A DNA stretch of 64,000 nt, from NCBI GenBank assembly GCA_004123355.1, contig SCHM01000001.1, positions 2,844,001 to 2,908,000 of the forward strand, in the 5' to 3' direction. The stretch's first letter is position 1, and every line of letters starts with the position of its first letter. This stretch comes from Amphirosellinia nigrospora (Eukaryota > Ascomycota > Sordariomycetes > Xylariales > Xylariaceae). The notes under the pieces were generated by a model. It did no database searches. It was given only the letters and a program-made list of their open reading frames with translations, and was not told the DNA's origin. The translations under genes were made by a program, and so were the position numbers. Positions 3,646 to 64,000 of this stretch are shown here, in pieces.

Positions 3646-5466
3646 CTACCTTGGCGGCCGATCGCAGCTTTTCGTCACCCTCCAAGCGACGAGTCCCCGT
3701 CTTCCAACGGCTCTTTTGAGGGTATTCCAAACCCCGTCCTCGGCCCAGTCCAGATCATCCAGGTTGAGGTGTTTCCCGTACCTCCAAACCTCCCTGAACC
3801 GCAGACCGTCCAACCCCTTGTTCTCCAGGTAAGGGTCCAACCACGTGGTCGAGAAGGGCGCGATCAGATACGTGCCGGTTTTCTCTTTGAGGTATTCGCG
3901 GCTGCGCCGGTCGGCGGGCGTGTCGCATGTCGCTATGCGCCCTAGCTCCTCCAGCAATGTCTCGCCCGGCATGCCCGCCACGTCCTTGGTGGTGAGAACC
4001 TCGTTCTTGCCGTTCAATAGCCAGATCGGAGGCATGTATGTCTTCCACCAGATCGCCTGTGTCGCGTCTGGTTGCTTGCTTAGGAAAACCTGAGCAGGCA
4101 CTATCCCGCCTTGATGATATACTCCCATTAAAAGTCCCAATACCGCATTAAACCCGATCCAGGCACTTATCCAAATTTTCAGAAATTTGCTATTCTTCGG
4201 TAGCTGCACTGATGACAGCAGCAAAGGTATCGTCGGGAGCAAAAACCGAGCTTCCTGGTGTTGAAACATCGAGAGTACTAATATTCCAGATATGGCGGAA
4301 TAAAACCGTAGGTTTAGATGCGGTTGCGTGAAGAGAAGGCCAACGGCCGGTCCAATGAGTAGAGGTAGATTGACAAGTAAGTGTTGGTACCAAGGATGGA
4401 GTCCATGCTGCGCTAAATTGGAAGGCGAGATATTGTATCGCAAATTATTCCACGGCGTAAGCACAGGGTTTCGATAGAGATCCAACCAAGATATCGAATA
4501 TGGCGTGTAGAACGAGGTATCGAGTGAGACGGCGACCAAAAGCGTAAATAAGGCCGAAATTGTCATCACAATAAGTGAGAAAGGTCTAGTTTTAAGCTCC
4601 TAATTAGGATTGTATACCATCAAGTTTCATGGCTCATGGGTTCTTACTTATTAATAAAATGTGGTATTAAGCGAAGCCCGGGTATTAGTAGAAAGGCAGG
4701 GAATGTAATCCTGTTAAAGAAGCCGAAGACACAGACACCACCAAGCACAGTCGAGGCCAAAATAGAAGATGATTGCTGCGAGGGCTGATTAGTATGGGCC
4801 CACTGACAGGATGGGATAATTGAACAGGAGCTGGATACTCACAGAGGTCTCCAGGATGCGCTCAATCAAAACCAAACTCCATAAAACCACGAGTGTCTCG
4901 ATCGAGTTAGAGAAAGTGTGTGTCTGGAAGGTCCAGGTGACATAAGACGATGCGACCAACAAGGCGGCGACGGGACGGTGTCGCCGCGACGGCACGAGTT
5001 CATGTATAGCCCAGTCCTCCAGCACGAAGCTGGTGATGAACATCAGGACGCGCAGCGTCCAGAATACGGCGATCGGGGGATCTCGCCGTCGTTGCCATTA
5101 CCGATCCACAGCCAGCGCAGAAGGAGCATGGGTAGTCCGTAGACCGGCCATAGCGGAAAGACGCTTCGGATAGGGTGGTCGCTCGTGAACTCCCAAGTCA
5201 GTCGGACGGGGTACTTGAATATTTGACCTATTGGGTTGCGCCCAACATCGCGTTAGTGAAGTTCAAGGTGCGTAATCCGATGCGCAGTGGTGAAGTGGTG
5301 GGCATAAATGCGACGTAAACTAAGGCGATAAGGTAGGTTAGGTTTACTTGTACATACCGGCGATGACCTCCGGACCTTGGAAGTTCTCATCTGGATGCAG
5401 ATAGCTCGACGACAGGGCAAACCATAGTCGGACCAGCACCAGGAGCAGGTATGTGCGCCGCCACAT
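3646..5466 (-). CDS. SMP3: GPI mannosyltransferase 4 (Smp3/PIG-Z type, GT22)
   Basis: ER membrane enzyme that adds the fourth mannose to the GPI-anchor precursor from dolichol-phosphate mannose. Start ATG at 5466-5464 gives [20 protein letters not shown], a signal-anchor helix followed by [14 protein letters not shown], the acidic loop motif of GT22 enzymes (HPDE). Further conserved blocks are [35 protein letters not shown] and [20 protein letters not shown]. Exons: 5466-5358, 5227-4843, 4775-4648 and 4599-3646, about 525 residues, normal for the family. The frame breaks at the G run 5075-5079 (GEIP then IAVFWTLRV) and at the third donor near 4647; one extra base at each site restores the frame and makes the exon sum divisible by three. 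Same strand as LAS21, which acts in the same pathway. GPI10/PIG-B is the main alternative; HPDE and the C-terminus favour Smp3. Confidence 0.85.
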
Positions 5467-7215
5467 GGTTCCCGAAGGGAGATGCGTCCATTCGCATGCG
5501 ACTTAGGGTTCGCGATGCGCAATGAGACTCAGGTCTGGGAGTCGGGACGTGGGAGCAAGATAACGACGACAGGGTGTTAGGCCTGGAGGTACTCGATAGG
5601 GACGAACTGTGGGACTCTTTCGTGATCGGCAGGGCAGGTATCGTCAGACTCGATGTACGGTTCGCATGGTGCAGAGGATGCGCGCGAGATGGTCGTCGAT
5701 GCAATGGAATAATATATAGTGACTGTAAGATGACGAAGAAAGGCGTCAGGAATAAAGGCTAGGACTCGGCTGTGTGTTTGTTGTTGACAGGCTCACTAAA
5801 AGAATGGTAGTTGTTGTTGGTGTGGCCCCTTATCAACGTCAGCCCGGTCAAGGTGCCACTGAAAGAGCGAGCGTAGGGCAAGAGGAAAATCAAATGTTGT
5901 CGACTGATTCGACCGTCAATATGCACCTCTATAGTACCACAAACGAGGGTAGAACGAGGGTCTCATTGCCTGGCTAGCTTTGTGTTATTGGTTTGACTAG
6001 CCAGGGCCGCCAATCAGCTTGGGTGGGTGTGGCCATGTGCTGGGATCCTGTGCGATTGCGACCCGTGTCATTTCATCTTATTTGGGACAAATCTATTATT
6101 TTTAATTTTGGGGGTTCAATGGGGTTATTGGCCTGTCGACGGGCCTGTCAATGGGGTGGTCCGAGTTTGAATGCAAGTCATTCATTAGAGCTTTCCACTC
6201 ACTAGCCAAACCGTCACGCCACCCGGCAGATTATAGCCCTACATAATGTATGTATGTCTTGGTTCTGTATCATTGCTAAGGTATGAAGATTTCGCGACCG
6301 ACTCTACAGTAATAAAACCTATGCATACTGTCAAATATCCCGATGTTTCCATACGTAGCGACACAACTAGTCGCGTTTCTTCAAGTTATAGCGTAGGTAA
6401 GGTAGTATTACTATGCATATCCTGACAGATTATAGTAGTAAGGCAAATTACAGAGTATAGGCTGTGGAACCATTGCGTGGATCATTCGAGGCACAAACAA
6501 CCACGCAGTAAGACGGTTCCCGAATACGATTATATTAGACGTGTAACGTCCGGGCCACATCTGCATTTCTAGGTCTGTCTAGGGATTATGATAATCTTCG
6601 AGACCGAGACATAAAATATTTCCGATCATAGGGCAGGACTACTAGCGAGGGGCCGGCTAACCAAAGGTCTTATGAACATTTTTAGTGCCATTTAGCACGG
6701 GTATATCACACTATACCTAGTAGCGTAGTCCTGTCAAAAGTAGGTCCCGTCGGACTCACGATGGATGACAATGCCGTCATACCTCCCTAGTTGTTTGTGG
6801 GTACCTACCGGTGTCCAGATGCACGCTGTAATACCTACAGTGGGCAGCCACAAGGCTGAAGCCCGTCGGAGCAATTCTCAGCTTCGCGACCAATCAATAG
6901 CTTGTATCGAGCTACAGTGGGCCTAGGATCTCTTACTCAGTACTTTGTATCCTAGTAACATTCCTCTGGATTCTCCTCTTGATGGAATCCAGGTTCATCT
7001 CGGATATAAACGGCCATCTTTGATCTCTTTGCATAGCTGGTCGAAGGACATTATGCTACTCTGTTTGCCGTGCAAGTGCTAAGAGTACAAATGGCATGAG
7101 GGCAGCTTCGGACAGATTTCAACGAATACAAGTCTCTTGAATTTCATACGAAGAACGTTATTTAAATCTACTTGTATAATTAGTCGTGCACATATCTAGC
7201 CACTTTATTCTGGTA
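5467..7215. other. Intergenic region, no gene seen
   Basis: About 1.75 kb between SMP3 and LAS21, both on the minus strand, so it holds the SMP3 promoter and the LAS21 3' end. A 9-bp inverted repeat (6634-6642 and 6725-6733) with a small hairpin between them is visible. No protein-like open frame was found. Confidence 0.6.
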
Positions 7216-10153
7216 TCAAGTTCGCCCCAGCCAATACAACAAGCCCCCCAGTCCCATGTTGATAACAAGATGCTGCCCCAAACTCCAGGCCATGCTATAA
7301 AGATACTTCGGCGAGAAAACGGTCCAGATGAACAAGTGAGTTCTCAGCGCGGTGCAAGCCGCCATCACAGACCCAAGCTAGCCGCCACATACAACGTCAA
7401 GAGCGACGCGTGCTGCGTAAAGACATCCCTGCTCGCTTCGCCTCTTGTAGCTTTCATCCTGCTCGATAGTAGCAGGAGATTCGACGCCGACGTCCACCAC
7501 ACGGCGCCGGCCCAGTTGCTGACGAACGTCAGCGCACCTACGGCAAAGACATTGAAGTCACTGATGCCATTGTAGGCACTGGACAGATCAATCCCGGTGA
7601 AGGCATTCGAGCCCCCTCGCGAAGAACGAGGTGAACTGTAGGAGTAATGACGTAGTGGTCACTTCAATAGGGTCGAGGTTAAGCTCATTCAAGAAGAAGT
7701 ACATGCCCCGAAATAACAAGAATAAAGGTGCATTAGTCGCTCGCGACTGGGTCAACGCGAAAAGCGTGTATAAATGGTGTATAGCATGCACAGCTATGAC
7801 AGTATTAGTGCAATTCGGGTTTTGGTACGGCATCGTTGTGCTTACCTTGCTTCCTAGATGATTTAGTCGGCTGGAAGCATAACAGATATAGTGGGTAGAA
7901 AGCCGTGAGTCCAATGCCCATGAACACGGCTCGAGCTTGGGTCACGAGGGATGGCCCATCGAAGAAGTCGGCTAGGATTCTCGCCAGCCCGACAACTAGC
8001 TCAGGAGCATCTTGTTTTGTGAATGTGAGCTTGAATGATACGGCTGATGTGACCACTCCAGCAACAACCGAACCCGAAATCACGGTTGGAATCCCATCCA
8101 GAGCATTCAAAAGCTCACGGCTAACCAAAAAATACGCGGACCATACCAGCGCCCAAAGAAGCGTTGGGTGAGGCACTAGAAATGTAGTGACAATATCAGG
8201 CTCACCAGCAAATTTCTGGCCGGTTTGATTCCAACCGCGCGCCAGCCTCATCATCCCAAGCCCAAGGAGCGTCATAATGAGAAATTTCCCGCTTAGTCTT
8301 GGTGCCCTGCTGCAATGTCAGAAGCTAGTATTTTAGGCGAATCGGTGCGGGGATTATCACCTGTTGACCACAAGATAGAACAGCCACGCAGTCGTTGACC
8401 AATACCAGAAATGTTGCTCTTCCTCAACATAACTGCTAGCAAACATCATTACACCATAAAGTAGAGTAATCAATACACAAGGTACGAATTTGCGGATGGT
8501 CGTTTTGGTTGACACAGTCGTAGCCACGCCGGCTGCAAATGTAGCAGCGGCCGTAATGATTCCACCCAATATTAGCTTATCAATGTCATAATTGCTAGCC
8601 ATGCCGCTCATCATGACTTGAGCTTTAGAAAGCCACTATTTTGCAAAACATGTAAGTAAATACTTCAAAAAGTAGGTACTAGGACAGGCAAAGGAGAACC
8701 CACTCTTGATATATCTGAGGTCCAATCCTGATGCTGGGCACTATTGGTTTCTAACTGTTGGGTAACCTTACTGATTCTCCTCCACTCGCAAACTAACTCT
8801 TCAGCCGAGGAACTTGGGTGAAGACATTCCTGCTCACTCGCCACACCCTCGGCAAATGGGCTGCCTAATGTAGCGGTGACAATGGCAAGAATCTGTCTGG
8901 CATTACGCATAAGGATCTGCAGTTTATCGCGGGCTAGCAAACTAAGTTAGCCACCGCGATCTACGGGTTTATTATCAACTTACACTCAGGCCAAAGGGGC
9001 AGGAAGTCGGAGATAAAAGCCCCCAGGCTATTTTTAGGAACAGGGAAGCCGAGAAGCGCAGCAAGCGTTGGCGCCAAATCGGACTGCTCGACAGTGGAAT
9101 AGTATTGAAAGTCTTCAGTGAACTTGGCTGGGGCCTTTGCGCCTCCAGAAATGGCTTTCAGCTTTGGAGATACAAACACCAAAGCGGCCGAAGTCTCTCC
9201 AGGGGAAGAAGCCCCATGGTTACCTGCATCATTCATGCCGTGATCTCCACATACGACAAGCAAGGTGGACCGCAAATGCTCATTAGCTCCCATAGCTTCA
9301 TATATCTGATGCACTATGGCGTCCATCTCGCGCTGCTTCGGGATCATATTCGGGCCTCGCGGACCCGTCTTGTGACCAATGTGGTCGAGCCCCAGGTAAT
9401 GCAGGACCATGGTGTTCCAATCATCATTGACCAACTCGCCGGCGATGTGTCTCGTCACATTGTTATCAACCTCAACAAAGTCGGACACAAAGAAGCTCGT
9501 AGTCCCATCTGCTCGGTCGAAAGTGGCGGGGAAGAGTTTCAACCATGTGTCATCACCATACATGATTAGTTTCCCGGTGTTCTTGGCTCTCATCTGGGCG
9601 AGCCATGTATCCTGCGATGCTAAGGTCGAAGAGGTGTCGGCCTCGTCAAAGCTTAGGATGGCGTCGAGAAATGAGGGCGTCGTGCCGGTCGTCATGGCCT
9701 TAATGCGCGCATGGTAATAGTAGGGGATGTCGCATGAGCAGTGAACGGAATAGCAACGCCATCGTTGATTAAGCTGCACATGTACGTATCAGCAGAGATG
9801 TTCGCGGGCATGAATGTACTAAATAAGCCGACTCACCTTCGGGTATATTCGAAGCCTGAGCCATCAAGATACACAAAGTCACTAGAATCGCATAGCAAGT
9901 CAACGTGGCTGTAACTCCAATGAACGACCCGGGCTATCTACCTGCGCAAAGCATCGACAACCATGAAAATTAGCTTATCGAACGGCGCGTTGGGAGGCGA
10001 CCCAAGGTCCAAGTCTTCGTGGCGGGCGAGGCCAGGTAAAAAGGGTTTGTAGGGGAAGAAGCCGGTCGCAAAGATCAGGATGGCGACAGGTAAGAGTAAA
10101 TTGGCTGCGACAAGGAAGATCGTCGAAAAAGGGATGACATGGTGACGGTGCAT
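7216..10153 (-). CDS. LAS21: GPI ethanolamine phosphate transferase 2 (Las21/Gpi7, PIG-G type)
   Basis: ER multi-pass enzyme that places ethanolamine phosphate on the second mannose of the GPI anchor. The N-terminus (start ATG 10153) has one TM helix (FSTIFLVAANLLLPVAILIF), then the alkaline-phosphatase-like lumenal domain: DKLIFMVVDALR, SDFVYLDGSGFEYT, HATSPTITM, YGDDTWLKLFP, LDHIGHKTGPR and CGDHGMNDAGNHG carry the metal-binding Asp/His residues. WLSKAQVMMSGMASNYD begins the C-terminal part with many TM helices, ending GLGGLLYWLGRT. About six introns, the first at 9941. Single-base losses break the frame at 9710-9712 (TITM / RIKAMTTG), 7612-7616 (C run on the plus strand) and 7372-7374 (CCC). 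With those allowed for, the protein is full length, about 850 residues. It lies next to SMP3 on the same strand. The FTAHATSP and C-terminal motifs favour Las21 over Gpi13 or Mcd4. Confidence 0.9.
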
Positions 10154-10612
10154 GTCCAATGGCAAGGGTCGAGCTTTTCGAGTTCGTTCATGGAAGAGAA
10201 TCTATTAGAGGGCGAGCATACCTCATTCTTCGAGAGTTGATAAAAGAGTGACGATGGTGAGCGATTGAGGACCTTGGGGAGGGAAGGTTAATTGAACTTG
10301 GGCGGCGTCACAGCTTACGGTAGGTTCCCAGGTTGCTGGGTTTCAGGGACTCCTGGCCCCTGTCAGTACCCCTGTGGAAAAACCGGGGATGGCGCGTGCC
10401 GTAGTGTATGTATCTCCTATTCCTGTCCGAGCTCGCCAGATCCCCGCATCGCCGGGACCCGGTAGCATCCCGTCGCTAGTAATGGCTAAGTCGTATCAAG
10501 AACCATTAGATGTTAGTGTTCACAGACCTATGTCGTTGTGTGACATAAGCGGATTAGACTAGACGAGAAACCATATAGAGGCATAGAATGATCACTGTCA
10601 CCATAAGCTGTT
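10154..10612. other. Intergenic region (LAS21 promoter / TRM732 3' end)
   Basis: About 460 bases between two minus-strand genes. CCC/GGG-rich near 10340-10470. No gene seen. Confidence 0.6.
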
Positions 10613-13600
10613 CTATACGTCTATCCTACACATCCTAAGCAGCAATCCATGGATCCTTACTCCATCATCACCACCTAGCTTCCAGAAGCGATTCAATTCC
10701 TCTGACACTTCCGTATAGGTGTTTGCTTCCTCCTCTTTATTCTCTTCTCCTTGGATATGCGCTTGGCTCCGAGTGTTTTTCAATTCCGCAAGCATGGAGG
10801 CGCAAATCAAGATACGTGCGCAAATCGTGAAAACCTCAGGTTTTGATGTCCATCCCAGGGGCCCGTCGCCAACTACAGCGGACTCGGATCGGGCGATCTC
10901 AATGAGTGCGCGCAACCCACCTAGTGTCCATTTCGCGAGAGCCTGATCTGCGTTACCTCGGGCGTCTTTGACCCTGGTCGAATCTGAGGCTAGAAAAACA
11001 TGCACCCACCGCTTCGCCTCGCGTACCTCGTCGATATATTGATTGTGTTCCTCGACGACAAAAAGTGAGTCATCGAACCGCATAGCTTCTGCTAGCTGGT
11101 CCTTTGCTGGGACCCAGTCTGACCCATCTGCCTCGGCTGAGCCTCTTTCTATTGGGCCTGTGGTGACAAAAGAATAAGAACCAAAATTGTGTCCAACTAT
11201 ACGCCCTGCGACGTGCATTAGGAAATCGGAGTCATGTCCGAAGTGCGCAGCGAGCCAGCGCAAAAGTTGAGCACCAGCCTCAACTGGCACGAGCGCCAAC
11301 CCCAAAACAGGGCTTGCGGCTTCAGCAGCAGCTTCCGAACTTCCACATCATCATCCGTGAGAGCGTCGTAGAGGGCAAGAAGCCACGGCAAGTGAGCAGT
11401 GGATATCGTAGAGTGATCCGATATACCAGTAGGAAAACAAACGATAGCCGCTAGCGAATTGATAGCTTCTACAGCAGCCACACGAGTATCAAATGTCTGC
11501 CGCTTAGTTAGTTTGTATGTTTCTTTATTAAAAGGAGAGGATTCAGCTAGACTTACTCGATCCGCCACCCCAGCATCACTCATCATAGTGCCCCAGCTCC
11601 TTAGCCGTCGCGCAAGGCTCTCGTCAAACTTTGGCCCCGCGCCCGAGCGAGAGAGGTAGCCATCAGAGGCCCGCTAACGCGTATAATAGCGTCGGCAAGG
11701 CTCGCATTCATAGGTTTCTGGTGTAAGTCTAACCATAGAGTATGCATCGTCTCCTCCGGTGGAACACCACTTAGCGTACTATCTCGGGACGTAGCTCTCA
11801 ATAGTGCGTCTATCAGAGACGCGAGACTTTCTAGAGCCGCTGTTCGTGGCTCTGGCGCTTTTGTGGCAAAGCATACATGTAGATATGTGATTGCGAGACG
11901 TGATTTGATCTCATCCTTCTGTGGCAAGTCACTACTTGCTACGGCCTCAAGCATTCCGCATGCAATATTGATGTCAGTCGCTAGAGCGCCCTCCAGCTCT
12001 TGATCCAGCGTATCAATTGCCTTCTCATTCTTTCTTCTCAAGGCATGCTGCACATTTGCTTCGCCCGTTCTGATATTTAACAATGCGAGAGGCGCCTGGC
12101 TAGAGCTCCGGTTTGCCTTCAACAATCTGAAATCCCAAAGGAGTCTGTTGGGCTGTATCTGAACCGTTTTTTCTATAAAGCTGACAACGTCGATGTATAC
12201 GGCTTGCGCTTCCGTGCATGTAGACAGGCAACCATTCGAAGCCGTCATACCGCCCAAAATCTCGCAAATAACATTGATTTTTTTCTCTATACAAAGTTAG
12301 TATCCTGGTCGTAGTAGTGAGGTGCATGAACGAGACCTACCAGAAAGCTCATTCGGCATAACTTGAAGAAGCCTTTCAAGTAAAAATCTTATAGTAAGAA
12401 GTACTCCATGTAGCTTGTTCGCGCTTTTGCCTGTGCTAGTAACAAGTAGTTCGACGGACTCGAGCCAAGCAGGTGTCAAAAGTAACGAGCATAGGGTCCG
12501 TGCCGCAATCTCTCTCACATGCCATATGTGACTACCCAAATACCAGGAAATTACATCAAATAGTTTTTGAATGTATCCTTCTGGCGGGCCAGCACGACGA
12601 ATGATATCTAGCGCTGGGAACACCGCTTCGGCCGTTTGCGTGCCCATAGTAATGCCGGATGATTCTTTACCCAATTCCAAGAGATTGACGAGAAGTGAAG
12701 GGAGCGCCTCAAATTTATGATACGGAATTTTAACAGTTCGACCGTCCCACCCAGCCTCCACCGTTGATTTGTTCTCGTTCGTACCAAAAAGATTATCTAT
12801 CAGGCTTCGCAAAAGCAGGAGACCACAGTTACGGATTGCCCATCTATATTAGTTAGCTTTCTCCGTTTTTTGAAAAGTGATTCTTATGACCTCTTACACT
12901 TCCGATTGGAGACTCGACGCAGCCAATTGCAAACAATCTGTTAAATAAGGTTCAGCGCGGTGGTTCAAGAAAGATGTTTTGAAAATGTCCTTCAAGCAAT
13001 TAAGAGCATGAACTTGTGCGAGATTAGATCCGTCCGTCTCGGATACGAAAGCTGGCTCTCGCCCTATTTCTTGTAATTTAACCATAACTTCGTCAAAAGA
13101 GGGGTGATCCATTTTAGCTGCTAGTATGCCGACAATGATGGCAGGTATCCCGGCTGATCTCCGGGTCGTCGAGCCCTGTGTGCGTATACAGTTCAGTGCC
13201 CCCTATATAAATTAGCGACGTATCATACAGAAAGTGATGGAATGACTGACCTCGTACCACCGTTTCAGCAGATCGATGCCATTGTTTTGATGGTCAAGTG
13301 TACACTGAATGAGTTGACAGCAAGCTGTGAAGGTTTGAGAAACGGTGGAAAACGCGCCTCTGTGTCGAAGATTCGATAACTCATCAAACGTTAAACTACC
13401 AATATCCTCAAAGTTTTGCCAGGAAGGGGCAAGAAAGCCCTGTTTCCGGTCATAGCGCGCATTTTGAACAATGGCCCGCAGTAGGTTACTACAATAACTC
13501 AGTACAACGATTCGATAACCATGTTGTGTCTTACCTTGACTCATGTATGGCTCTAAAACTATAGCTCAAGAGGTCTTTGGTGTCGAGACCGTTTATCTCT

Positions 13601-15861
13601 TGTAGTTCTTCCGGTAAATGACCCTCAGGAGAATCGTCGCATAGGATATGTTGGACCGTTCGCCAAACGTGTTGGCAACACGAGACTGCTCGATCTTGGA
13701 ACCCATCGAGGATGGTAAGATAACGTTGATCAAGTCGGACACCAGTAAATGAACTCCACATATACCTGAATCCCCATTCAGCAACACATAGCGTGATTCA
13801 TAAAGCAGCCATCTTACCTAAGAGATGTCACCGTGAACTGGCGCTTGAAGCACGGCCGCTGCTAAATCATTTTCCGCCGCACAGAGCTTCTGCTCGAGAC
13901 CTGTAGATATAGCCTCCAGCACCTCCACTGCTTCTTCGAAGCCAGAACTCCAGCGGCATAGAAGCTGGTGGGATCTTGCAGCGCCATCACAGTGGTCAGC
14001 ACGAGCAGTTTTGAGGGCAAGCTCATTCGCTCTTCGACAAAATGTCCGCAATTCTTCGAAGGGGCTAGAATGGAGACTACGAATCTGGGAGGGTGGCCCA
14101 GACATAGACTCGCCGGATTGAAGGAGCATAATTAATGATGTAGCGGCCTCTCTAACATCATCATAGGGATCCATGATGAGATCGAGGACCGATCGAAACC
14201 ATATGTTATCTATCAAGAGGTTCACTGGCCATCTTGTAGTAGAAGGCTCACCACCTTGGGTCATATATGACGTGAGAAAGTAGTTCATGGCTCTCAGAGA
14301 TGTTATATGGCGTTGATATGACGCGGAAGGCATGAGCTCTTCTTTGAGAAAACCGGCGTACCATTCGATAAACTTTTCATGGTCGCGGAGGGTATCAGTC
14401 GGAGGCGTGCCCCCTCTTTCTTGCGAGGTTGTTGTGTTTCGGTTTGATTTATCTTACTATTCAGTGTCGAATCTGTCTGGTCAAAATCCAGCACCGGCTT
14501 CTCCAATTTCTTTGACACACGGACGGATTCTTTATGAAGAGTATCAACGGAGTTATGGAGGCGCCGAATCATGTTTTTTGAGTGACCCAACACGCCATAT
14601 CTAATTCCGGGGTCAACATCCTCATGGAAAGAAGGAAGATACTTCTGTAGGAGACAGAGTGTCTCTGAAGTATACGGCTTTGTAGTTGATGGCGATGCAA
14701 CAAGGATGGACAATCCAGAAGCACGTGCCTCATGAGACCCATGGCATAGTAAGGCCTCCAGGATGTGAGATGGAAGCTGGCTGGCTATGGTTATGTTCTT
14801 TTCCAAACCTGCACCGTGGTTAAACCATATTCCATTAATTAACCATGAGCAATATTACTCACCATGGTTTGGTTCACCCACTACACCGGTCTTCTTTCCC
14901 GCTTCGAGTAGAGCAACCCACAGAATGGCGTCTATATCCCAGATCCCACTATCGCTGGTTGTAAGTTTCTGAAGGGAGGTTAATTCATTGAGATATATCA
15001 AGGTCGAAGTGGGATCTGTCTTGAATAGAGGCATGAAAATATAGGTTTTGATTGGTTCAAGAAGCTCGATGTTAGCACTTAAGCCTGTTGAAATGAACTT
15101 ATGCCAGGTATTGGGATGGTGCCTAGAAGTCTTATCGTCATGATACCAAGGCTGTGTTAAGATGGTGACTAGAAGCTTACCAGCTACTGTCCATAAATTC
15201 TTTAACCTCATCCATGCGAAAACACAGGATATAAAAGAATCCCAGTCCTGTTCACAAGAAGTATTGTGAGGCGCTGATAGATTTGTAAAACCTCACCTAG
15301 ATATACGACCCTTTTCTGTAGGAAATGATCGATGGCGATCATAGAGGATTTTGTTGACGGCTTGGAGGCCTGGAGCGTGATGACCGATACTGTGTCGTTT
15401 AAAATGCTATCTTTAATCGACTTGCTGGTCTCTGCATCCGGATTCCGCGTGATGGAAGAGACGATATAGTCAAGAACAAGGCGCATGGACCTGTGAGCAT
15501 CTTGTTCGTTCCACTCAATAAAGTAGTTGAATAGCTTTATGCTGGTCGCTTGAGCAAACCCAAACATCCTTAGATCAGGCGAAGTGGACTTGGAGCAGTT
15601 CTCGACAAATCCACATACTTTACTACACGCACTACCAGAAATTTCCTTTGGTCGTGCGGCATTAGTAAGTAGCTTTTCGAAAATGTGCTCAACTAGCCTA
15701 TCCTATTTGTGAGTACGATAAGAAATAATATGTAGATAGACTTGAACTTACGATGGCCGGATGTGCTCAGGTTGTTGCTCTAGCCAAGCGACCGCAGCCT
15801 TTTGGTTGAAGGATGTGCTCCCAACTTCGGGAAGCTCACTCAGACTCATTTTGATTTCCAT
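10613..15861 (-). CDS. TRM732: DUF2428 HEAT-repeat protein, Trm732/THADA-like
   Basis: Homologue of yeast Trm732 and human THADA, the partner of the Trm7/FTSJ1 methyltransferase for 2'-O-methylation of tRNA position 32. Start ATG 15861 gives MEIKMSLSELPEVGSTSFNQ; the rest is alpha-helical repeat protein. The DUF2428 core reads RWYEGALNCIRTQG, TRRSAGIPAIIVGILAAKMD, AQVHALNCLKDIF and AIRNCGLLLLRSLIDNLFGT (about 13200-12770). About nine short introns, for example near 15762-15713, 14863-14810, 13535-13490, 13252-13203 and 12893-12840. One-base losses break the frame near 15256, 14410-14414, 13820-13825, 11670-11672 and 11334; in each case an added base in a short run restores the conserved protein. 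About 1,600 residues, usual for the family. The long coding stretch on one strand and the core motifs make this secure. Confidence 0.87.
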
Positions 15862-16541: not shown

Positions 16542-17311
16542 ATGTCGATCTGGGATGCCCTCACAGGACGCAAGTCTTCGTCATCGTCTCAACAACCCGC
16601 CTCCCCTGCCCCTCGGCCTCCACATCTACTACGCGCACCGAAACATTCAATCCGTCGCCTTTCGACCCCTCCGAACCTCAGGGTGTCGATGCCTTCTTAA
16701 ATAGCTCTGCTTTTGCAGACCCCTCCCAGCTGCACCCTCTGGCTGGCCTCGACAAAGAAACCCTCGAGTACCTCAGTCTAGAAGACTCAGCACTGACCGA
16801 CCTGCCTGGCGCACACACCGCCATCCCGTCGCGTGGCTTTAGCGACGACCTCTGCTATGGAACTGGTATCACATATCTTACTGCCTTATCAATAGGCGGC
16901 GCCTGGGGTCTTCAGGAAGGACTGCGGAAGTCGGCCGGTCAGCCGCCCAAGCTGCGCTTGAACTCGGTTCTCAACTCAATCACAAGAAGAGGTCCTTTCT
17001 TAGGCAACTCAGCTGGTGTTGTCGCTATTACATATAACTGTATCAATTCCCTGATAGGCTACTTCAGGGGTCAGCACGACGCCGCGAATACCATCGTCGC
17101 CGGAGTGTTGAGTGGTATGGTATTCAGGAGTACGCGGGAGTCCGGCAAATGATGATATCGGGTGGTGTCGTTGGCTCCATTGCTACTGTCTGGGCGGTAA
17201 GATGCTCATGTCTCTATCGTGATCATGTTCGACGCTAACACGCAGTAGGTGACAAAAAGAGTAATCATCGCGAGCCCGGTGCCACAAGCCCACGAACATG
17301 AGAGTCTATAA
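16542..17311 (+). CDS. TIM23: Mitochondrial inner membrane translocase subunit Tim23
   Basis: Channel-forming subunit of the presequence translocase of the inner mitochondrial membrane. It reads MSIWDALTGRKSSSSSQQ at the start, an acidic intermembrane-space segment (LAGLDKETLEYLSLEDSALT), then four hydrophobic segments with the Tim17/22/23 core: GFSDDLCYGTGITYLTALSI, LNSVLNSITRRGPFLGNSAG, INSLIGYFRGQHD and GVLSGMVFRST, then RQMMISGGVVGSIATVWAVT. One intron at 17197-17248; stop TAA at 17309-17311. Two single-base losses, at the C run 16609-16612 and the G run 17136-17138, break the frame; with both restored the protein has 239 residues, the usual size. As an essential gene it argues strongly that the indels are assembly errors. 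Confidence 0.9.
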
Positions 17312-18381: not shown

Positions 18382-19950
18382 ATGTCTCCTAAAGAGCCCC
18401 GGCGAGGCGGAAATCCACGAAGATCGCGGGAGTATTGCCGAAGCGGCGTGTCTAACATGCATAGAGCTACTTTAACTATGACGGACAACTCTCACAGGAT
18501 GGCTGTGCAACTCGCTGACCATCTTGTAAGTGGCATGGCTCGCAACTTGGAGCTAACACGCTCGCCAATGACAGAACAACAGCATCCGGAAATTTTCGGT
18601 GAGGAGTTTGACCACTATTGTTTTGACATTTACGATCCAGTCAATCAATCCAAAGAAGACGACAAGGACAAAGAATTTTACCTTTTAAAGAACGACCGCC
18701 TGATACATAAGATACCCCTCCTGATAAATAGGAAAGACACCATGCACGAATTGCAAGTTTGCCTCCCATTACTTGGCAATATATTGTGGCAAAGGTTCCT
18801 TATTTACCGATCTAATTGGGGGCGATACAAAAACCGGGACAAACACTACAATAGATTCCATACCATGAATCTGCCGAATCAAGTAAGCCATTCTCTAGGC
18901 TCAAATGAAACAATTCACAGACCACTAACCCGTCGATAGCTCGCAATAGTAGCCAGGAGCTTTCTTTTTCAGCGTCGACCCGATGATGATATACAACAAG
19001 CTCCGTCTGTGTCCATTGTGCCTCGCCTCTTCTCCTGGGGTTACCCATGCGAGGAGATACAAGTTGGTGTGGTCAAGATCCTCGAAGATGAAAATAAGTT
19101 ACAGATAGTCACATTCGCTATCAAGCTTAACGGTATCGATGAGAAAACACTCGGCGAGATGATGAGAAGGGCACATCAAGTGACGAACGGTTACCACTTG
19201 AACCAGAACATTTTTCAAATATGGTGTGTTGAGCATTGCCATGAGGACTGGGCGACCTTTGGTCCCCAAATTAATGGACATAGCCATATTTATGGAAATA
19301 GCCACACAAACCGAAATAACTTGATCAATGGAAATGGCTTGATCAACGGAAATGGCTTGATCAATGGAAATGGCTACACTAATGGACATAACACAAACCA
19401 TGCAAGCACATACATTCAAGAGAGGGGCAACGAAGTTCGAAATGGTGGTAGCCGGGGCAATGAAGATCTAATACCTAGGGAAACACGCTGGCACTACAAG
19501 CCTATCGATATATCCAGTGTTCGCGGGATAGGCCCATTTGACGTTGGTCTATGGTACCGCTACAAGTTCGACGAATTGCCGAAGCTAGTCCAACTCTGGG
19601 GCATCCGAGGCGCCCTATTTATGCCGGTGAGCTCGCCAGTCCTATAAGAGACGAAGTCTATGACACTGGTACTGACAATACGGAACTAGCTAGAACAGAT
19701 GTCTCGTGTCCTTGAAATGTGCAAATGGGAAGTGGCAGGGACACCTTTTGTCTCCCCCCGCACCGCGGTAGTCGACGAACCGCCTTTATTCAGTGTGCTC
19801 CGCAGAGGTTTTGCTCTGAACAAGAATGTCAGCGTCTCGTGTTTCAATTATGCAAATGCTCACTCACCAAGAAACTCGAGCAACCAAAGCGGGGAGGCCT
19901 CTTCTTCGAACTCGCACGGGGTCACAACACCTTATAACGGCAACCAGTAA
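18382..19950 (+). CDS. Hypothetical protein with LINGNG repeat, three exons
   Basis: I do not recognise this protein. Three exons, 18382-18882, 18940-19626 and 19690-19950, splice with canonical GT-AG borders (intron 1 has an ACTAAC branch site) into 482 residues with the length divisible by three, which supports a real gene. The N-terminal third is charged (PVNQSKEDDKDKEF), the middle contains FSWGYPCEEIQVGVVKILED and MMRRAHQVTNGYHLNQN, then an Asn/Gly-rich stretch with three LINGNG units, then RETRWHYKPIDISSVRGIGP, and a Ser/Asn-rich tail. No signal peptide or TM helix is evident. A GTAAGT...ACAG pair at 18526-18574 could be a further intron but would shift the frame. The start is chosen as the first ATG of the open frame; an ATG about 25 codons later is also possible. 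Confidence 0.5.
19321..19374 (+). repeat. Three-copy 18-bp tandem repeat (LINGNG)
   Basis: Three adjacent copies of TTGATCAAYGGAAATGGC at 19321, 19339 and 19357; the middle copy differs by one silent T-to-C change. Degenerate related units flank them on both sides (HTNRNN before, YTNGHN after). Confidence 0.95.
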
Positions 19951-28980: not shown

Positions 28981-30049
28981 GGTGGATGACTTGGTTGGGG
29001 CTCTGATCGATGGGAAGAACCTCTAGCATGGAATAAGTCGTTTACGCCTTGGAGAGCTCTGATGTAGAGAGACCAATGTTGCTATAAGCCGAAAGCGCAT
29101 TGTGATGCAGTTGAAGATAACTCGCTGCTCTTATACTCGAGTAGGAACACAATCATCTTCCATGGAGTGTCCCAAAGAGTCATTTCCGTATTGCACTTAT
29201 CACACTAGCCGTGTCATCCTAGAAAGCCTGGAGACGAATCAGAGGTATTTCCGACATAAAGCCATGATAGAGTAGCATCGAATGCATCTCTATGATGCAT
29301 TTCTGTAAAACAGGTATCGCGACCAACCCTAAATTCGGGATGGTGAGAACGCTCAGCGTCCCACCCGATTCCAACCCCAAAAACCCCAAAACCCCAAGTT
29401 TTCAGCGTCTGAGGCGGATGCGGAGCCGATATTGCATCTACGCTAATGATGTGAGGTGTGCAAATTACCACGATCTAGAGTAGCACTCGTGTTTTCGAAC
29501 GAAGAGTGAGTCGGCCGAACCCAACTCAGTGACGATGGTCGGCTTCTCTGCCAATCCGGCAGACATTGAGCATATGTCGATTTCAGAATAATTGAGTTTC
29601 CTCCTCGAGACTTGATAAACCAGTCATTTTCATTGGGCATATAGCTATCTCTATACCATGTCATAGAGCCCAGTAGGGTGGCAGGTTGGCGGAACGCACC
29701 GCAATACCAATAAGGCAAAGGCTGCTGGGATCCATGTGTGAATTGGCTGATCTCCAGACAGGGGATGTAAGTCATTCAAGAGGGGTTGCGGTTCCGGTGC
29801 GCCGGGAGTTCCAACAGGAGAGCAGCAATTCGCGGTCCGCTCTGCGTGCGTCTGCGGAACCGCAATGTCTCATCACATAGTCTAGTCTATCACACAGTTT
29901 CCGTGGTCTCCCAATGACGACAAGCTCACCGCCCCTCGAATTTCTAAGTGTCCAAGGATCCATTACTTCAATGCTTTACTTCGAAATTTTAACCGATTCA
30001 AAGAAACCTACGTTCTAGGGCTTGAGTGAATAACACGAATAAGACCAAC
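28981..30049. promoter_or_regulatory. Shared divergent promoter region (BVMO / beta-lactamase-like gene)
   Basis: About 1.07 kb between two divergent start codons. It contains the block CCCCAAAAACCCCAAAACCC near 29381. No defined transcription-factor site is claimed; co-regulation is inference from the arrangement. Confidence 0.45.
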
Positions 30050-40750: not shown

Positions 40751-41631
40751 ATGTCGTCCTTCGACCAACCATCGCCGCCATACAATGCGTCCGATCCCAC
40801 GGCGACCTTTATGGGGACCTCATGTCTCGACTTCCTACTTATCGAGCTCGTGCCCATGGCATACCGGATCACCAACGAGCTAGAGGAGGCGAACGACGGC
40901 GACGGCAGCAAGAACACCGAGGAGACGGGGTCCGTGAGCACAGCGGCCGGCACGATAAGTACAGCGCCCGGGGCGTCATCCGCGGCGGGGAGGAAAAGCA
41001 AACTAGACGAGGACGAGGAGAGGGAAGCCGTGTTCTTCCGCCTCGAGGGGCTGGGGTACCGTGTTGGGTTAGGACTTGTTGAACGGTATATGACTTTCTC
41101 ATCCTCTTCCTCCCTCCCGATCTATTTCCAAACGCAATATGCGTCCCTCTCTCTCTGTACTCCTACCATGCTGACCCCGAGTCCCCCGCCCACAGCTTCT
41201 CCCGCGATCGCCCGCGCTTCACCGACACATTAGACGCCATCAAGTTCATATGCAAGGACCTCTGGATGCTCGTCTTCAAAAAGCAAGTCGACAACCTCAA
41301 GACGAACCACGCGGCGTGTACGTACTAACGGACCACGCCTTCCGGCCGCTGTCGCGCATGAGTACCGATGCCGGGGACAAGCCGTTGCGCAGGCGCAGCC
41401 GGTACGTAGCCTCCCTCTCGTCCCCATCCCTAACTGCCTCTAAAGCTTGTGCCAACATCGCTGTTATGGGATCCAAATGACTGACGCCATGTATAGTTCC
41501 TCTGGTTTCCCTGCGGGATCCTCCGCGGCGCCCTAGCAGCCATGGGCATCAGCGCCACGGTGCAAGCCGAGACAAGCGAGTTGCCGAGCGCCGTGTTCCA
41601 GATCAAGACCACGCCCGCAGCTCCCAAGTAA
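40751..41631 (+). CDS. TRS33: TRAPP complex subunit Trs33 (TRAPPC6 type)
   Basis: Subunit of the TRAPP guanine-nucleotide exchange complex that activates Ypt1/Rab1 and tethers ER-to-Golgi vesicles. The Bet3-like fold is clear: SCLDFLLIELVPMAYRIT, FFRLEGLGYRVGLGLVERFS, RDRPRFTDTLDAIKFICKDL, WMLVFKKQVDNLKTNH, GVYVLTDHAFRPLSRMS and FLWFPCGILRGALAAMGI then ATVQAETSELPSAVFQIKT. Exons 40751-41085, 41196-41401 and 41497-41631. Single-base losses at about 41310 (NH/RGVY) and 41381 (DK/AVAQAQP) break the frame; restored, the protein has 225 residues. A Ser/Thr/Glu-rich insert (residues 40-80) separates the first two helices, as in other filamentous fungi. Confidence 0.9.
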
Positions 41632-42870: not shown

Positions 42871-44245
42871 TTACTTCTGAGGAGGGTTGTGGGCAAAGGT
42901 GATGCCCTTCTCGATATTGTCCTTCAGCCCCTTGACGCAGGCATCCACCAGGGTCTTTTCCTTCTCGGTGATACCAGAGAGAGGGTTGGTGACCTTCTCA
43001 ACACCATTGGGCTAGAGATGGTTATGTCAGTTACAAACTATATCTATGTTACGGACCGGGGACACGAGATAAAGGTCAATATCTTACACCAAGCTCAACT
43101 GGTACAGAGAAGAAATCCAGGCCGGTGGCCTTCTTGACTTCCTCACCTCCGGGAACACCCGGTAGGTAGACGAAGCTGGGCTCTACTAAGCCCTTCTCGC
43201 CCTTGGCGGCCTTCAGGACCTTCTCGGCGAAGCTACATGAAATTAGCTACTAAGAAGCTCTGGATAAAATCGAGGATCTTACCGGAAACCGGCGAAAGCC
43301 ATGGACAGAGTAGCAGAACCGGCACCGTCCTTAGCCTTGACGACCTCATCACCACCAAACTGAACGCGGTGGACGAGAGCGTCATATTTGTCGTCTGGAA
43401 TGGTGACGCTGGGGCTGGCCTTGCTGAAGATAGGGACAATAGTCTCTCCAGAGTGACCGCCGATAACCGGGATGGTCAGCTCTGAGCCGGTCTTCTTGCC
43501 CGCGATCTCGGCGACGAAGGTCTCAGCTCGGACGATGTCAAGGGTGGTGACACCGAAGAGTCTCTGGGGGTTGAAGACGCCCTTGGCCTTGAGAACCTCG
43601 GCAGCGATAGGGACGGTAGAGTTGACAGGGTTCGAGATGACGAGAATGAAGGCCTTAGGGCGACCTCGGCGGCAATCTCAATCAATCCCTTGACGATGCC
43701 GGCGTTGATGTTGAACAGATCATCACGGGTCATGCCGGGCTTGCCTAGGAATGTGTGAGCAATCTTACGGGCCGTAGGCATTGACAATCGGACATACGGG
43801 GAATGCCAGCAGGGATGACAATAATGTCGGCATCTTTCATAGCGGCCTTTCCGCCATCGTCCTTGGGCAGGTAGCCAGTGACTTTCTGTGGAGTGGTTTA
43901 GCAATTTCATGCTGCTAACAGCCAATTGACCAGCGATGGTGTGCTTACAGCAGTTGATGAAATATGAGATAGATCGGTAGCAACGCCTGGAGTATTGACG
44001 ACATCGTAAAGAGAGAGCTCGTCAACGTATGGGCTCAGCTTGAGAAGGAGGGATAGCGGCTAATCATCCGAGATGTCAGCTCTCTCACGTCTCGGTAAAA
44101 TTATCGGTGCAATTAGGCAGCTCCACGACGGGCTACGAACCTGGCCAATACCGCCAGAGGCGCCGGCAACAACTATTTGACGATCGTATTAGCATTAGGC
44201 CAAGCGAAGGGCCGATTTTGGAAGGTTCTTACCAGCTTTAACCAT
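42871..44245 (-). CDS. NAD-dependent malate dehydrogenase, cytosolic type
   Basis: Interconverts malate and oxaloacetate with NAD(H). Start ATG 44245 (MVKA) splices to [11 protein letters not shown], the NAD-binding glycine loop, with no mitochondrial presequence; fungal proteins starting [20 protein letters not shown] are the cytosolic form. The substrate loop is [20 protein letters not shown] (Arg residues for dicarboxylate binding), [17 protein letters not shown] follows and the catalytic His lies in [15 protein letters not shown]. About seven introns; one splits the codons between IP and RKPG (donor near 43801). A C is missing at the GGG 43658-43660 (plus strand), shifting the frame at EVAPKAFILV. 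About 330 residues. Ends FAHNPPQK at 42871. Confidence 0.92.
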
Positions 44246-45631: not shown

Positions 45632-46379
45632 TTACTCGGCGGCCTTCTTGGCCTTGGCGCCACGAGGCTTAGACTCGGGGTAGGCTTGGTCTCCTTGTAG
45701 GAGTGGCGGATGGCAGAGGCACGGGCGACGGCGGCCTGGCGGAGGTCGGCACGGTAGCCGTTCTTGGCAGCCTGGTTGGCAACAGCAACGTAGGTCCTAG
45801 TAGCAAACGTATCAGCATGTCTTGCTGTCCATATATAAAGAACCTCATCCAGCGCGTGGGGGCTGATGATCGGGGAGTACTGACTTCCGTCCGGACTTGC
45901 CGCCGCTGTAGGTCTCGGTGGTGGCCTTGGCGGGTTTTTGAGCAGAGTCGGTCTTCTTGCTCAAAACCTTAACACCGTTCTTCTCGGCGGGGCAACACCA
46001 ATAGCCTGTTCAATTTTCTAGTGTGAGCCTCATCTTTATTCATCGTATCGAGTTATTCGCGGCGGTTGTCATTTTCGCACCTTGTCGTTCACGAAACCAG
46101 CATACTGGTAGTTATTATTAGCCCCTGCCACACTGGAAGACATCCGAGAATGCTCACCTTGCGCGAGTGCTTGTTGGTCAGATTTAGGGGATCGCGGGAG
46201 AACTGAACACCACCTGAGCTCTTGCGCTTGACGAGGAAGGAGTTGTTGCTGCCTGTATAAAAATAAAATCCGTCTGTATTAGTCTTGGCTACCTACAAGT
46301 CGGACCTGCATAGTTGCGCAGCGGGCCGAAACTCACGAACAATCTCCCAGACCAAGTCGGCGGAAACGTTAGAGGCCAT
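45632..46379 (-). CDS. RPL28: 60S ribosomal protein eL28
   Basis: Structural protein of the large cytosolic ribosomal subunit. Start ATG 46379: MASNVSADLVWEIV, then NNSFLVKRKSSGGVQFSRDP, LNLTNKHSRK, YAGFVNDK, AIGVAPAEKNGVKVLSKKTD, SGRKTYVAVANQAAKNGYRA and DLRQAAVARASAIRHSYKET, ending KAKKAAE. Four introns, typical of fungal ribosomal protein genes, one of them after the 14th codon. Bases are missing at the G runs 45989-45992 (VAPAEK) and 45677-45680 (TPESKPRG). About 150 residues. The promoter to its right carries the MITE at 46624. RPL28 here follows the animal/unified name eL28, which budding yeast lacks. Confidence 0.92.
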
Positions 46380-48879: not shown

Positions 48880-49965
48880 TTACTTGCTCTTCTTGGATTC
48901 CGTGGCCTCGTACACGCGGTCGTCGACGCCCTCGACTTCCTTGGTCATCTTCTCGACGCCCTTGACCTGCTGCCTCCACTGCGCGTCGCTCATCTTCTTC
49001 TCCTTGTCGAAGAGGTCGGCGTCGGGCTGGCGGTAGGAGCCGCCGAGACGGTCCCAGAGGGTGGTGTACTGGCCGTAGTTGTAGTTGAAGTACAGGTGGT
49101 GCATGGTGTGGCAGGCGGCGCCGTTGATGACGGGGCTATCGGCAACGTACTCGCCGTCGTGGATCATGATGGTCCAGAAGTTGACGAAGACGAAAAGGGC
49201 CACGGACGCGTACTTGTTCAGGGGGAACAGGATCGGGTACAGGTGGTAGGGGAACGACTGCGAGAACCCGTCCACCGGGTGGAAGGCGTGCGAGGCGAAG
49301 GGCGTCGGCATGATCCACTTGTGGTGAGGCTTGTGCAGGTGCTTGTAGACCAACGGGTGATGTAGCCCGCGGTGGATCAGGTAGATCAGGGCATCGGTGA
49401 ATACCAGGAAGCAGGGGAACTGCAGAAACTCGTACCACATGCCAGGGCCTTCTGCGGGCGTATCGTACAGCTTCGTGTGCCCACGAACCTCAAGAAGCCA
49501 GAAGACGGTGGTGAGCACGGCCATGCCGGGGAAAGCCTGGATTGATTGCGCGATCTCCATGGAAATCTGGTTCTTGAGATACTTGGGGTGGGCTTTGTTG
49601 TTCTTGTCGAACACCAACCAGTACGAAAGGGAGGCGAAGATGAAGTATAATAAACAGCCAAATATCCTGAGCGCATGTTAGCGAGAGTGCAGATTTAGGG
49701 TTTCATGCTAAGTAAAGAATACATACACAGTGATGGTCCATAGCGAGATGGCCTGGCGGTAGATGTTGTCTCGGTCCCACGCGCTCATGTACGCGTATTT
49801 GCTCGGCTCGAAGTCAATGTAGGCGGACGCTGGCTTGTATTGCCATGATGAAGTAGTCGTGTTGTGAACATCAAAATAGTTCAACTCGGTCGACCGCGCA
49901 GGGTGAAGGTAGGCGGACGCATAGTCCCCTAGGTAGGTGTCCCAAATCTCGAGAATGACGTCCAT
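48880..49965 (-). CDS. ERG3: C-5 sterol desaturase (Erg3)
   Basis: ER di-iron desaturase that introduces the C5-6 double bond in ergosterol synthesis (episterol to ergosta-trienol). Exons 49965-49727 and 49666-48880 give 341 residues with no frame break. All three histidine boxes are present: HRGLHH, HKPHHKW and [14 protein letters not shown], with a further [16 protein letters not shown]. Three to four TM helices ([65 protein letters not shown]). The C-terminus is lysine-rich, ending ESKKSK, a dilysine-like ER retrieval signal. The start at [16 protein letters not shown] is the usual fungal one. Confidence 0.93.
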
Positions 49966-53010: not shown

Positions 53011-53082
53011 TGCTGCAACGGCGAATCGAACGCCGGTCTCATGCTTGGAAGGCAAGAATGATAACCACTACACTACTGCAGC
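53011..53082 (-). tRNA. tRNA-Gly (UCC anticodon)
   Basis: The reverse strand folds as a tRNA: acceptor GCTGCAG with TTGCAGC plus discriminator A, D arm TAGTGTAGTGGTTATCA, anticodon loop CTTCCAA with TCC at the wobble-to-third positions, and T arm CGGCGTTCGATTCGCCG. No intron. The overall pattern AGTGTAGTGGTTATCATTC is that of eukaryotic tRNA-Gly genes with internal A and B boxes. Confidence 0.92.
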
Positions 53083-54579: not shown

Positions 54580-54650
54580 GCATCAGTGGTTTAGTGGTAA
54601 AATCCATCGTTGCCATCGATGGGCCCCGTGTTCGATTCACGGCTGATGCA
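54580..54650 (+). tRNA. tRNA-Gly (GCC anticodon)
   Basis: Acceptor GCATCAG pairs with CTGATGC plus discriminator A; D arm TGGTTTAGTGGTAAAA; anticodon stem CATCG/CGATG with loop TTGCCAT (anticodon GCC); T arm CCGTGTTCGATTCACGG. 71 nt without intron. All stems pair perfectly or nearly so. Confidence 0.95.
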
Positions 54651-59001: not shown

Positions 59002-61051
59002 ATGTCTCTGTACCCGCATGCCCGCGGCCTGCCCCAGGGCGGTGCTCGCCTCCAAGAATTGCTCGACCAAATTCGCAGCGAGTTTGAAAACCAGATTCGG
59101 ATCAATGAGGGCTATGAACAGCAGAGTAGGTACCCCAATTCCACGTATTCCGAAGCCTTCGCTGCCCTCCAATACCTTTGGATCCTTTCAACACAGCTAG
59201 CTAAAATTATTGAAGTCCAACAACAGGTTCAAGAAGCATCACTCATTCGGGATAAAGTCTATCAATTAGAACAGGCCCACATGAATATTAAGCAAAAGTA
59301 AGGCGCATATTTCATAGTATCGCTATCTTAGACTTGACTAACTCGATATAGGTACGAAGAGGAAATCAATTTGCTTCGCCGCCAGCTTGAAGCTGCTCGA
59401 GGAGGCGCGCCTCCGCAACCTGGTATGCCCGGGCCTCCGCACGGCGGCCCCTCTGCTCCACCACCTTCGATTGGCGTGGGGAATAATCTCTTTGGCGGTA
59501 TCATGACCGGCCAGGGAGGCCAAGGTGCTGGTTTGCCCCCTCAGCCGCCTCCTCCGGAGCACCAGCCGCCTCAAGCTCAGCACCAGATGCCTCAGCAGCC
59601 ACCTCCAGGGCTGCAAGGCCCGCCACCTCCTCCGCCGCCACCATCACAGGCACCTCCCTTTCAGCCGGGTTACGGACAAGGCCCAGGTCCCAACGGCTTC
59701 CCCGGCCAGGCTCCTCAAACAACTGCCTCTCCTGGGCCCGGAAAGCGGGGGATTGGACGGCCTCCTGCTGGTCCGGCTACTCCCCAGATCAACACCCCTC
59801 TCCCATATGCCGGCCCGGGCGCATCGCCTCAGGTTCCAAACCATCCGACACCCGATCACAGAGTTGTTCATCCACCTCCGAACAATATGGTGAACAATGC
59901 ACTTGGAGAGTTGGATCCGACCGCGTCCCCGCGCATGTGAAGAAGACACGTGATGACTGGTTCGTTATCTTCAACCAACATGTCCCACGTGTCCTGGATG
60001 TGGATCTTGTTCACACCCTATCTCATGAGAGTGTAGTCTGCTGTGTCCGATTCAGTCATGATGGAAAATATGTGGCAACCGGTTGCAACCGTTCGGCTCA
60101 GATTTACGATGTCAACAGCGGTGAGAAGGTCTGCGTTTTACAAGATGAAAATGTCGATGTTACCGGCGATTTGTACATCAGAAGCGTTTGCTTTAGTCCT
60201 GACGGCAAATATCTTGCGACTGGAGCAGAAGACAAACTCATTCGGGTAAGCCCTCGTGCTAAAGTACTCGCCTTTCGGATACGAAGACTAACATTTTTAG
60301 GTTTGGGATATTGCCAACCGTACTATTCGCAACACATTCGCAGGCCACGAGCAAGACATCTATTCGCTTGATTTCGCCCGGGACGGAAGGACTATAGCGT
60401 CCGGCAGTGGAGATCGTACCGTACGCCTCTGGGACATTGAATCAAGTTCCAACATTTTAACCCTTACTATTGAGGATGGCGTAACTACTGTCGCTATCTC
60501 ACCAGATACCAAGTATGTAGCAGCAGGCTCCCTCGATAAGAGTGTGCGCGTTTGGGATATCCACCAAGGATACCTATTGGAGCGCCTGGAAGGTCCCGAC
60601 GGTCATAAAGACAGCGTCTACTCTGTCGCCTTTTCTCCCAGCGGCAAGGAGCTTGTGAGTGGCAGTTTGGACAAGACGATCAAGATGTGGGAGCTTTCGC
60701 CTTCTCCTTCTCGCCTGCCCGGTAACACCGGACCAAAGGGAGGTCGGTGTATCAAGACGTTTGAAGGGCACCGAGTAAGTTTTGTGGGACGCATCTTTCA
60801 TTCTAAGCTAATTGTGGGCAGGATTTTGTTCTTAGTGTTGCCCTTACCCCGATGCCAGCTGGGTGATGTCTGGCTCTAAAGATCGTGGTGTGCAATTCTG
60901 GGATCCGCGCACCGGTTATACTCAGTTGATGCTTCAAGGGCATAAAAACAGCGTGATATCAGTTGCCCCTAGCCCAACTGGTGGGTTCTTTGCTACAGGC
61001 TCTGGCGATATGAGAGCTCGTATTTGGTCATACCGCTCTCTCGCGCAATAA
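59002..61051 (+). CDS. TUP1: Tup1/RcoA/Rco-1 global transcriptional corepressor
   Basis: WD40 corepressor that acts in the nucleus with Ssn6/Cyc8 on many developmental and metabolic genes. Start ATG 59002: [20 protein letters not shown] begins the Tup_N tetramerisation coiled coil, continuing to [21 protein letters not shown] Pro/Gln/Gly-rich linker (residues 80-230) follows, then [20 protein letters not shown] and about seven WD40 blades ([14 protein letters not shown]-type repeats; [56 protein letters not shown]), ending [10 protein letters not shown]. Exons 59002-59125, 59216-59297, 59352-60245, 60301-60774 and 60822-61051. Bases are missing at 59919 ([11 protein letters not shown]) and in the CCCC 60847-60850 ([12 protein letters not shown]); with them the length is 601 residues. 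The first intron is 90 nt, in frame and free of stops. Confidence 0.93.
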
Positions 61052-62972: not shown

Positions 62973-63776
62973 GGTGCTGGGTGGCGTTGATTTGGAGATC
63001 TAAATATGAAGAGTTTGTGGTGGAAAAAACATGTGGGCGTTCTATCAAGATCTACATCGTCATATACATACCGGGCAGGGGTCCGGATAGCGGTGAGCAA
63101 GAATGTTGAAGGGCTACATTAGACGGTGAAAAAAGTTGTTGCCGGAATAGCATCCCGTCTACTCAACCGTGAATGAACAGCATTTTGCTCATCTACGACG
63201 TTCGCGACGAATTGTTTTATCTCCTATTGTATCAAACTTCATAAGATGGCACCTTTCAAAAACAGGGCATTTGCAAGAGAGCATGGCTCATCAGGCCGAG
63301 TACTATGGTCGCCAGGTTAGTATCCAGGTCGATGATGACCCCTGGTATTATACGTTGGCAGGGATTTTTCTGTTTTTCTTTTTCTTCATCTGTAACCCTG
63401 AATTGAGCTTACTTATGGGACGATAGATGCAAAAGCTTTGCACAACAAGCAAGTACGGACGAACGAAAGCCCTAGTCATCGTAACCCTAGAGAAGAAGGA
63501 AACTCGGAAGTTGAAAGGCATGTCACGGGATGCCGGGCAATAAAACTTGAAGACCTCGTTGGTGCTCCGAAGGGAACAATATGTCAATACGACTTCTAGC
63601 TGTGGTCTAAAAGCAGTACCATCAGTGGAGGTTGAAATTACAAGGAATGAGCGGCCATTCTGATAATATTGTAACGCCATCTTTGTGAGTTGAAGCGACC
63701 CTCGGATACTAATATCACAAAAGTGCTACCATCCTAACATACCCTCCCTCGGGTCAAGAATGAACCCCCCTATGTT
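62973..63776. other. Intergenic region, no gene seen
   Basis: About 800 bases between two minus-strand genes. Open frames on both strands (63169-63426, 63348-63680) have no supporting motif. Confidence 0.5.
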
Positions 63777-64000
63777 TTATTCCCCCGAGCACAGTTCCAG
63801 AATCTCCAAGACCTGCTCCTTCCGCGTCAGCGGCACAGGATTCGCCTTGCAGCACTTATCCTCGAGACTGTTCTCGGCCAGTTCCACCCACTGTCTCTCC
63901 CACGCCGACATCCTTCAAGCTCCTGGGCATGCCCAGCTCGTCGAAGATGGCCCTGAGCGCGTCGCCGAGGTCGCTCTCGCCCTTGGACAGACCGTGCTTC
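63777..64000 (-). CDS. Iron-type alcohol dehydrogenase / maleylacetate reductase-like, C-terminus only
   Basis: The end of a minus-strand gene cut by the window edge. It reads KHGLSKGESDLGDALRAIFD, ELGMPRSLKDVGVG and then, after a frame change near 63900, RQWVELAENSLEDKCCKANP and VPLTRKEQVLEILELCSGE with stop at 63777. The pattern LGMPRSLKDVGV...LAENSL...NPVPLT is the C-terminal helical domain of Fe-dependent alcohol dehydrogenases and maleylacetate reductases; the metal-binding part lies outside the window. The frame change fits a lost GA in a GAGAGA stretch. Confidence 0.65.

Follow-up and report, generated by a model that had tools for sequence, protein, structure and literature searches.

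The genes that appear broken in this stretch of DNA most likely carry leftover long-read sequencing errors, in which bases were dropped in short one-letter runs. The breaks are therefore an ordinary data-quality problem and not a decay of the organism's genome. The frame breaks exist in the letters; in the organism itself they are very probably absent, and its true genes whole. We assign a probability of about 0.95, reached from the assembly sequence, to the reading that the breaks stem from residual one-base indel errors in a highly contiguous assembly of noisy long reads that was not, or not fully, corrected by accurate reads. What was observed directly is that the breaks exist, that they are spread over six contigs, that most of them run in one direction and that copies of the 5S rRNA gene carry a like signature. 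From this we infer a nanopore-type sequencing platform and a missing correction with accurate reads. Until such correction is made, a large share of the genes will be misjudged when this assembly is used to call genes absent, to count pseudogenes or to model proteins.

The window, which is the whole 64,000-nucleotide stretch analyzed, comprises bases 2844001 to 2908000 of contig C1 in an assembly of 48.1 Mb and 11 contigs. The assembly is contiguous, with one contig of 13.8 Mb. The window codes for fungal-type genes, and its longest stop-to-stop frame has 317 codons. The features that were examined are given below; listed sites are the positions at which a preliminary description of the window had placed frame breaks.

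3646 to 5097, minus strand: Alg9-like mannosyltransferase gene, whose PF03901 profile is matched in separate pieces, at 74-157 and at 208-410.
7219 to 10201, minus strand: GPI ethanolamine-phosphate transferase-like gene, which Pfam pieces (PIGO_PIGG, Phosphodiest) and three-frame translation show to be split over frames; listed sites 7373, 7613 and 9711.
10613 to 15702, minus strand: Trm732-like gene, in many frames, the middle of which matches PF25150; listed sites 11334, 11670, 13822, 14412 and 15256.
16542 to 17235, plus strand: TIM23-like import channel gene, with frame breaks near 16610 and 17137.
27124 to 29022, minus strand: flavin monooxygenase-like gene, spread over several frames, with FMO-like matches at 13-145 (weak) and at 159-206; listed site 27169.
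30026 to 31478, plus strand: serine hydrolase of the beta-lactamase fold (PF00144), with Pfam 9-77 and 147-210 in different frames; listed sites 30354, 30384, 30919 and 31244.
40751 to 41628, plus strand: TRS33-like TRAPP subunit gene, with frame breaks near 41310 and 41381.
42874 to 44245, minus strand: malate dehydrogenase (MDH) gene, with the clearest zero-gap frame switch, at about 43659 and in the base-missing direction.
45632 to 46379, minus strand: ribosomal protein eL28 gene, in several frames; listed sites 45678 and 45990.
48883 to 49677, minus strand: ERG3-like sterol desaturase piece, an unbroken comparison gene.
59002 to 61048, plus strand: TUP1-like WD40 repressor gene, with frame breaks near 59919 and 60848.

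Several of these genes are split over frames without room for an intron. The frame breaks that the preliminary description had claimed for conserved genes are confirmed in part, and not every site that it listed was confirmed. The MDH gene, which matches malate dehydrogenase in solved structures and has a second genome match on C6 at 69% identity, is the clearest case. Its Ldh_1_N profile is matched at 82-109 in one frame and at 110-141 in the next, with no DNA between the two (Pfam; coordinates worked out by hand). Both pieces lie slightly under the Pfam cut-off, and the second runs on into Ldh_1_C at 87 bits. The TRAPP profile of the TRS33 gene is found in three pieces (2-43, 42-81 and 112-153), and the part between was placed in other frames by eye. 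In the TIM23 gene, the Tim17 profile is matched from 1 to 95 of 111, after which the frame is lost and, by eye, continues in another. This piece has a single genome match in a search that finds close copies only and does not list the Tim17/Tim22 relatives. The TUP1-like gene was recognized by WD40 profile pieces, with TUP1 among its solved-structure matches, and its frame change was read by eye in the three-frame translation. Successive pieces of the Trm732-like gene match TPR_Trm732 at 3-77 (weak), 83-171 and 167-265, the last two of which lie in two frames. The outer limits of that gene are uncertain, since no family scored above the cut-off for the further pieces 10616-11347, 11221-11673, 11604-12296 and 15211-15702. 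By comparison, ERG3 was confirmed to be clean, with FA_hydroxylase matched at 3-131 in one frame of a 265-codon open frame.

Some of these steps may have an ordinary cause, and a reading in which most of the listed breaks are short introns or wrong by-eye exon calls was weighed against residual sequencing error. Between PIGO_PIGG pieces near 7806-7850, about 43 nt are left over, and this step has the look of an intron. The eL28 gene has three Ribosomal_L28e pieces, at 8-40, at 53-85 (a weak match, E 0.06) and at 83-115; about 79 nt remain between the second and the third, where an intron may lie. An intron would also fit in some steps of the flavin monooxygenase-like gene. In the Alg9-like gene, the step between the pieces may, from the sequence, be either a break or an intron; the site listed there (5075) lies within a G run of 5. 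As an account of most of the breaks, introns or miscalled exons are nevertheless very unlikely, because the MDH switch leaves no spare DNA and because of the steps counted in the rest of the genome, as follows.

The genome was searched for three families (HSP70, TCP-1/Cpn60 and proteasome), which gave 34 loci. A break was counted where the frame changed with less than 40 nt of spare DNA, the gap being corrected for profile overlap; the Sugar_tr family, with 9 of 272 candidates scored, was left out of all counts. Among 35 piece-to-piece steps, 14 were wide enough for an intron, and 18 changed frame with less than 40 nt to spare, 17 of these with less than 5 nt. Breaks unexplained by an intron were found in 13 of the 34 loci, on C1, C4, C5, C6, C7 and C8. 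One locus on C8 has the HSP70 profile end to end in three frames (1-156, 156-458 and 457-598). By family, the broken loci numbered 5 of 10 for HSP70, 6 of 10 for the chaperonins and 2 of 14 for the proteasome. The statement that nearly every conserved gene is broken was thus too strong, since 21 of these 34 loci, including 9 of 20 chaperone and 12 of 14 proteasome loci, were unbroken by this measure. In 33.1 kb, these loci held 18 breaks, of which 13 were base-missing and 5 base-extra. This majority is not significant alone (two-sided binomial, 0.096), and two of the five extra calls fall in one messy locus (C1:6115480-6116998).

The main evidence against a biological origin of the breaks comes from the untranslated 5S rRNA copies. 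Of 33 genome matches, 30 were read (L002 to L031) and 3 were not. Copies within six substitutions of the consensus, 18 in number, were treated as near-consensus; the other 12 are divergent, with many true differences and some extra bases, and were not counted. Half of the near-consensus copies (9 of 18) were without some bases, and none had an extra base. In eight of the nine shortened copies, one base was gone in at least one C/G run of 3 to 5, and six of them had that change only. L016 has one-base losses in two runs, L022 has a run loss plus two neighboring bases gone elsewhere, and L025 has a four-base stretch gone. The one-base losses fell in the C5 run in 6 copies, in the G4 run in 2 and in the C3 run in 1. 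Nine copies are free of mutual substitutions and have lengths of 118 to 120; four are 120 long and five are short by one or two, and every loss among them sits in the C5 or the G4 run. There are 38 substitution-free pairs, 28 of which differ by indels (36 one-base events and one two-base event). Base-calling error would be expected to produce just this pattern, in which an untranslated gene loses bases but shows no substitutions. The length classes could partly be true variants, because the C5/C4 difference recurs in 6 copies. Separately, L017, L018, L019, L021 and L028 share a common set of differences from the main type and form a second 5S rRNA type, which indicates that the genome has more than one 5S class.

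These copies also bear on the possibility of real genome-wide decay with a deletion bias, as in a lineage that lacks mismatch repair and accumulates run-length deletions. The majority of deletions and their run context do resemble mismatch-repair-deficient mutation. However, the 5S run losses come without substitutions, and the genes that are broken include TIM23 and other essential genes of the window as well as chaperones, likewise essential, on six contigs. No loss of MutS-type repair genes was found in a genome search that covered MutS_V at the level of the family and gave six matches. Three of the matches are in open frames of 579, 874 and 1156 codons, and one of the other three has three internal stops. 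Because MutS-family matches stand in long frames, loss of mismatch repair is not indicated, and we consider decay extremely improbable. The preliminary description had named decay as a remarkable alternative and had held real loss of these genes to be very unlikely. The first found no support here, and the second is supported by the breaks in HSP70 and TCP-1/Cpn60 on six contigs and by the one-base losses in C/G runs of the 5S genes.

It is just as hard to credit that the sequence is right and that the fungus bypasses breaks in its DNA, decoding many frameshifted essential genes by insertional RNA editing or by frequent programmed ribosomal frameshifting at short G/C runs; this would explain how a cell can live although its essential genes are broken, but both directions of change occur (13 and 5), and untranslated 5S genes vary alike between otherwise identical copies. 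If the letters were true, they would imply a new kind of gene decoding, and the evidence points the other way.

If the breaks are residual long-read error, the base-caller or consensus step would drop one base in short runs, chiefly C/G runs of 3 to 5, and would add a base less often than it drops one. Frame breaks were detected over the genome at a rate of about 0.4 to 0.5 per kb of coding sequence. The sites listed for the window are consistent with the run context. Of the 23 sites described as losses, 14 have a run of at least 3 no more than 3 nt away (8.1 for random nearby positions; 38 of 2000 trials reached 14). At the same distance, 8 have a run of at least 4 (random, 2.4; 4 of 2000 trials) and 13 have a G/C run of at least 3 (random, 4.1; 1 of 2000 trials). 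This enrichment is biased because the sites had been chosen by the reader. At nine of the 23, no run within that distance exceeds a length of 2. The list is incomplete, since the eL28 gene, translated by eye, seems to contain two breaks no more than about 20 nt apart. A 75-nt coding-bias test called 12 of the 23 sites missing, 6 extra and 5 same frame; it was too weak, reading the wrong strand at some sites, and was used neither as support nor as refutation. At 33829, the one site among 24 for which an extra base had been proposed, this weak test also called a base extra. The proportion of one in 24 was too low, however, as base-extra breaks make up about one-quarter of the breaks in both the three-family set (5 of 18) and the frame decoder calls (6 of 28).

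The frame decoder was trained on the genome's own open frames and was run on the window and on 16 sampled regions of normal GC; 4 AT-rich regions of the 20 sampled were left out of the decoder and of the run-length count below. It found 8 breaks in 19.5 kb of coding sequence in the window (7 missing, 1 extra) and 20 breaks in 51.0 kb in the 16 regions (15 missing, 5 extra), for a total of 22 missing against 6 extra; these counts are probably low, and more so in the window, because short introns absorb breaks. The decoder placed 40 introns in the window's 19.5 kb, compared with 51 in the 51.0 kb elsewhere. By decoder rate, the window is a typical piece of the assembly. Frames of 400 codons were absent from the window, whereas the 20 sampled regions held 12, a possible sign that the window is worse than the average piece, even though the decoder rates are alike. 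Residual sequencing error does not by itself explain this shortage.

Run lengths were compared with a second-order Markov expectation in the window, the 16 samples and 29 of the 30 5S flanks, one flank being left out for its low GC. G/C runs of at least 6 were rarer than expected (54 observed, about 79 expected). A/T runs of at least 8 were in excess in the samples and the 5S flanks, which shows that run length is not generally capped.

The features seen here resemble the homopolymer error of long-read-only assemblies, such as nanopore assemblies before correction: indels of a single base within short runs, housekeeping genes with false frameshifts, and high contiguity. The spread over all large contigs tested here fits too, and the tests made gave no difference. 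The Homopolish paper states that errors surviving polishing tools are mainly homopolymer indels and shift reading frames (PMC8011154). Some uncorrected nanopore drafts in the tables of that paper are insertion-dominated and the error direction depends on the pipeline, so that direction is not diagnostic of platform. A close precedent is the filamentous fungus Rosellinia necatrix, whose genome is similar in size: nine of its assemblies, made from nanopore reads only, had low BUSCO scores of 68.2 to 82.5% (PMC10796067). The final assembly of strain R18, which drew on reads corrected with short reads, on additional nanopore data and on Hi-C, scored 97% in that paper. R18 is a different assembly from the present one, with 11 contigs, 49.1 Mb and a longest contig of 7.1 Mb, compared with 48.1 Mb and a contig of 13.8 Mb here.

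Some further observations were made on the window and the sampled regions. An Asn-Gly-rich repeat (NGNGLINGNG...) lies at about 19270-19404 on the plus strand of the window, within an open frame (18940-19647) to which no function was assigned. The region C1:8500001-8510000 has 46% G+C over 10 kb, no frame above 133 codons and no coding call and is apparently gene-poor. The AT-rich regions, 4 of the 20 sampled, include L045 (19% G+C) and L037 (25% G+C). The other two, C6:5000001-5010000 and C4:5000001-5010000, have 5.6% and 12.1% G+C, respectively, over 10 kb. In both, CA/TG dinucleotides are scarce and TA is common, a composition such as strong repeat-induced point mutation would leave.
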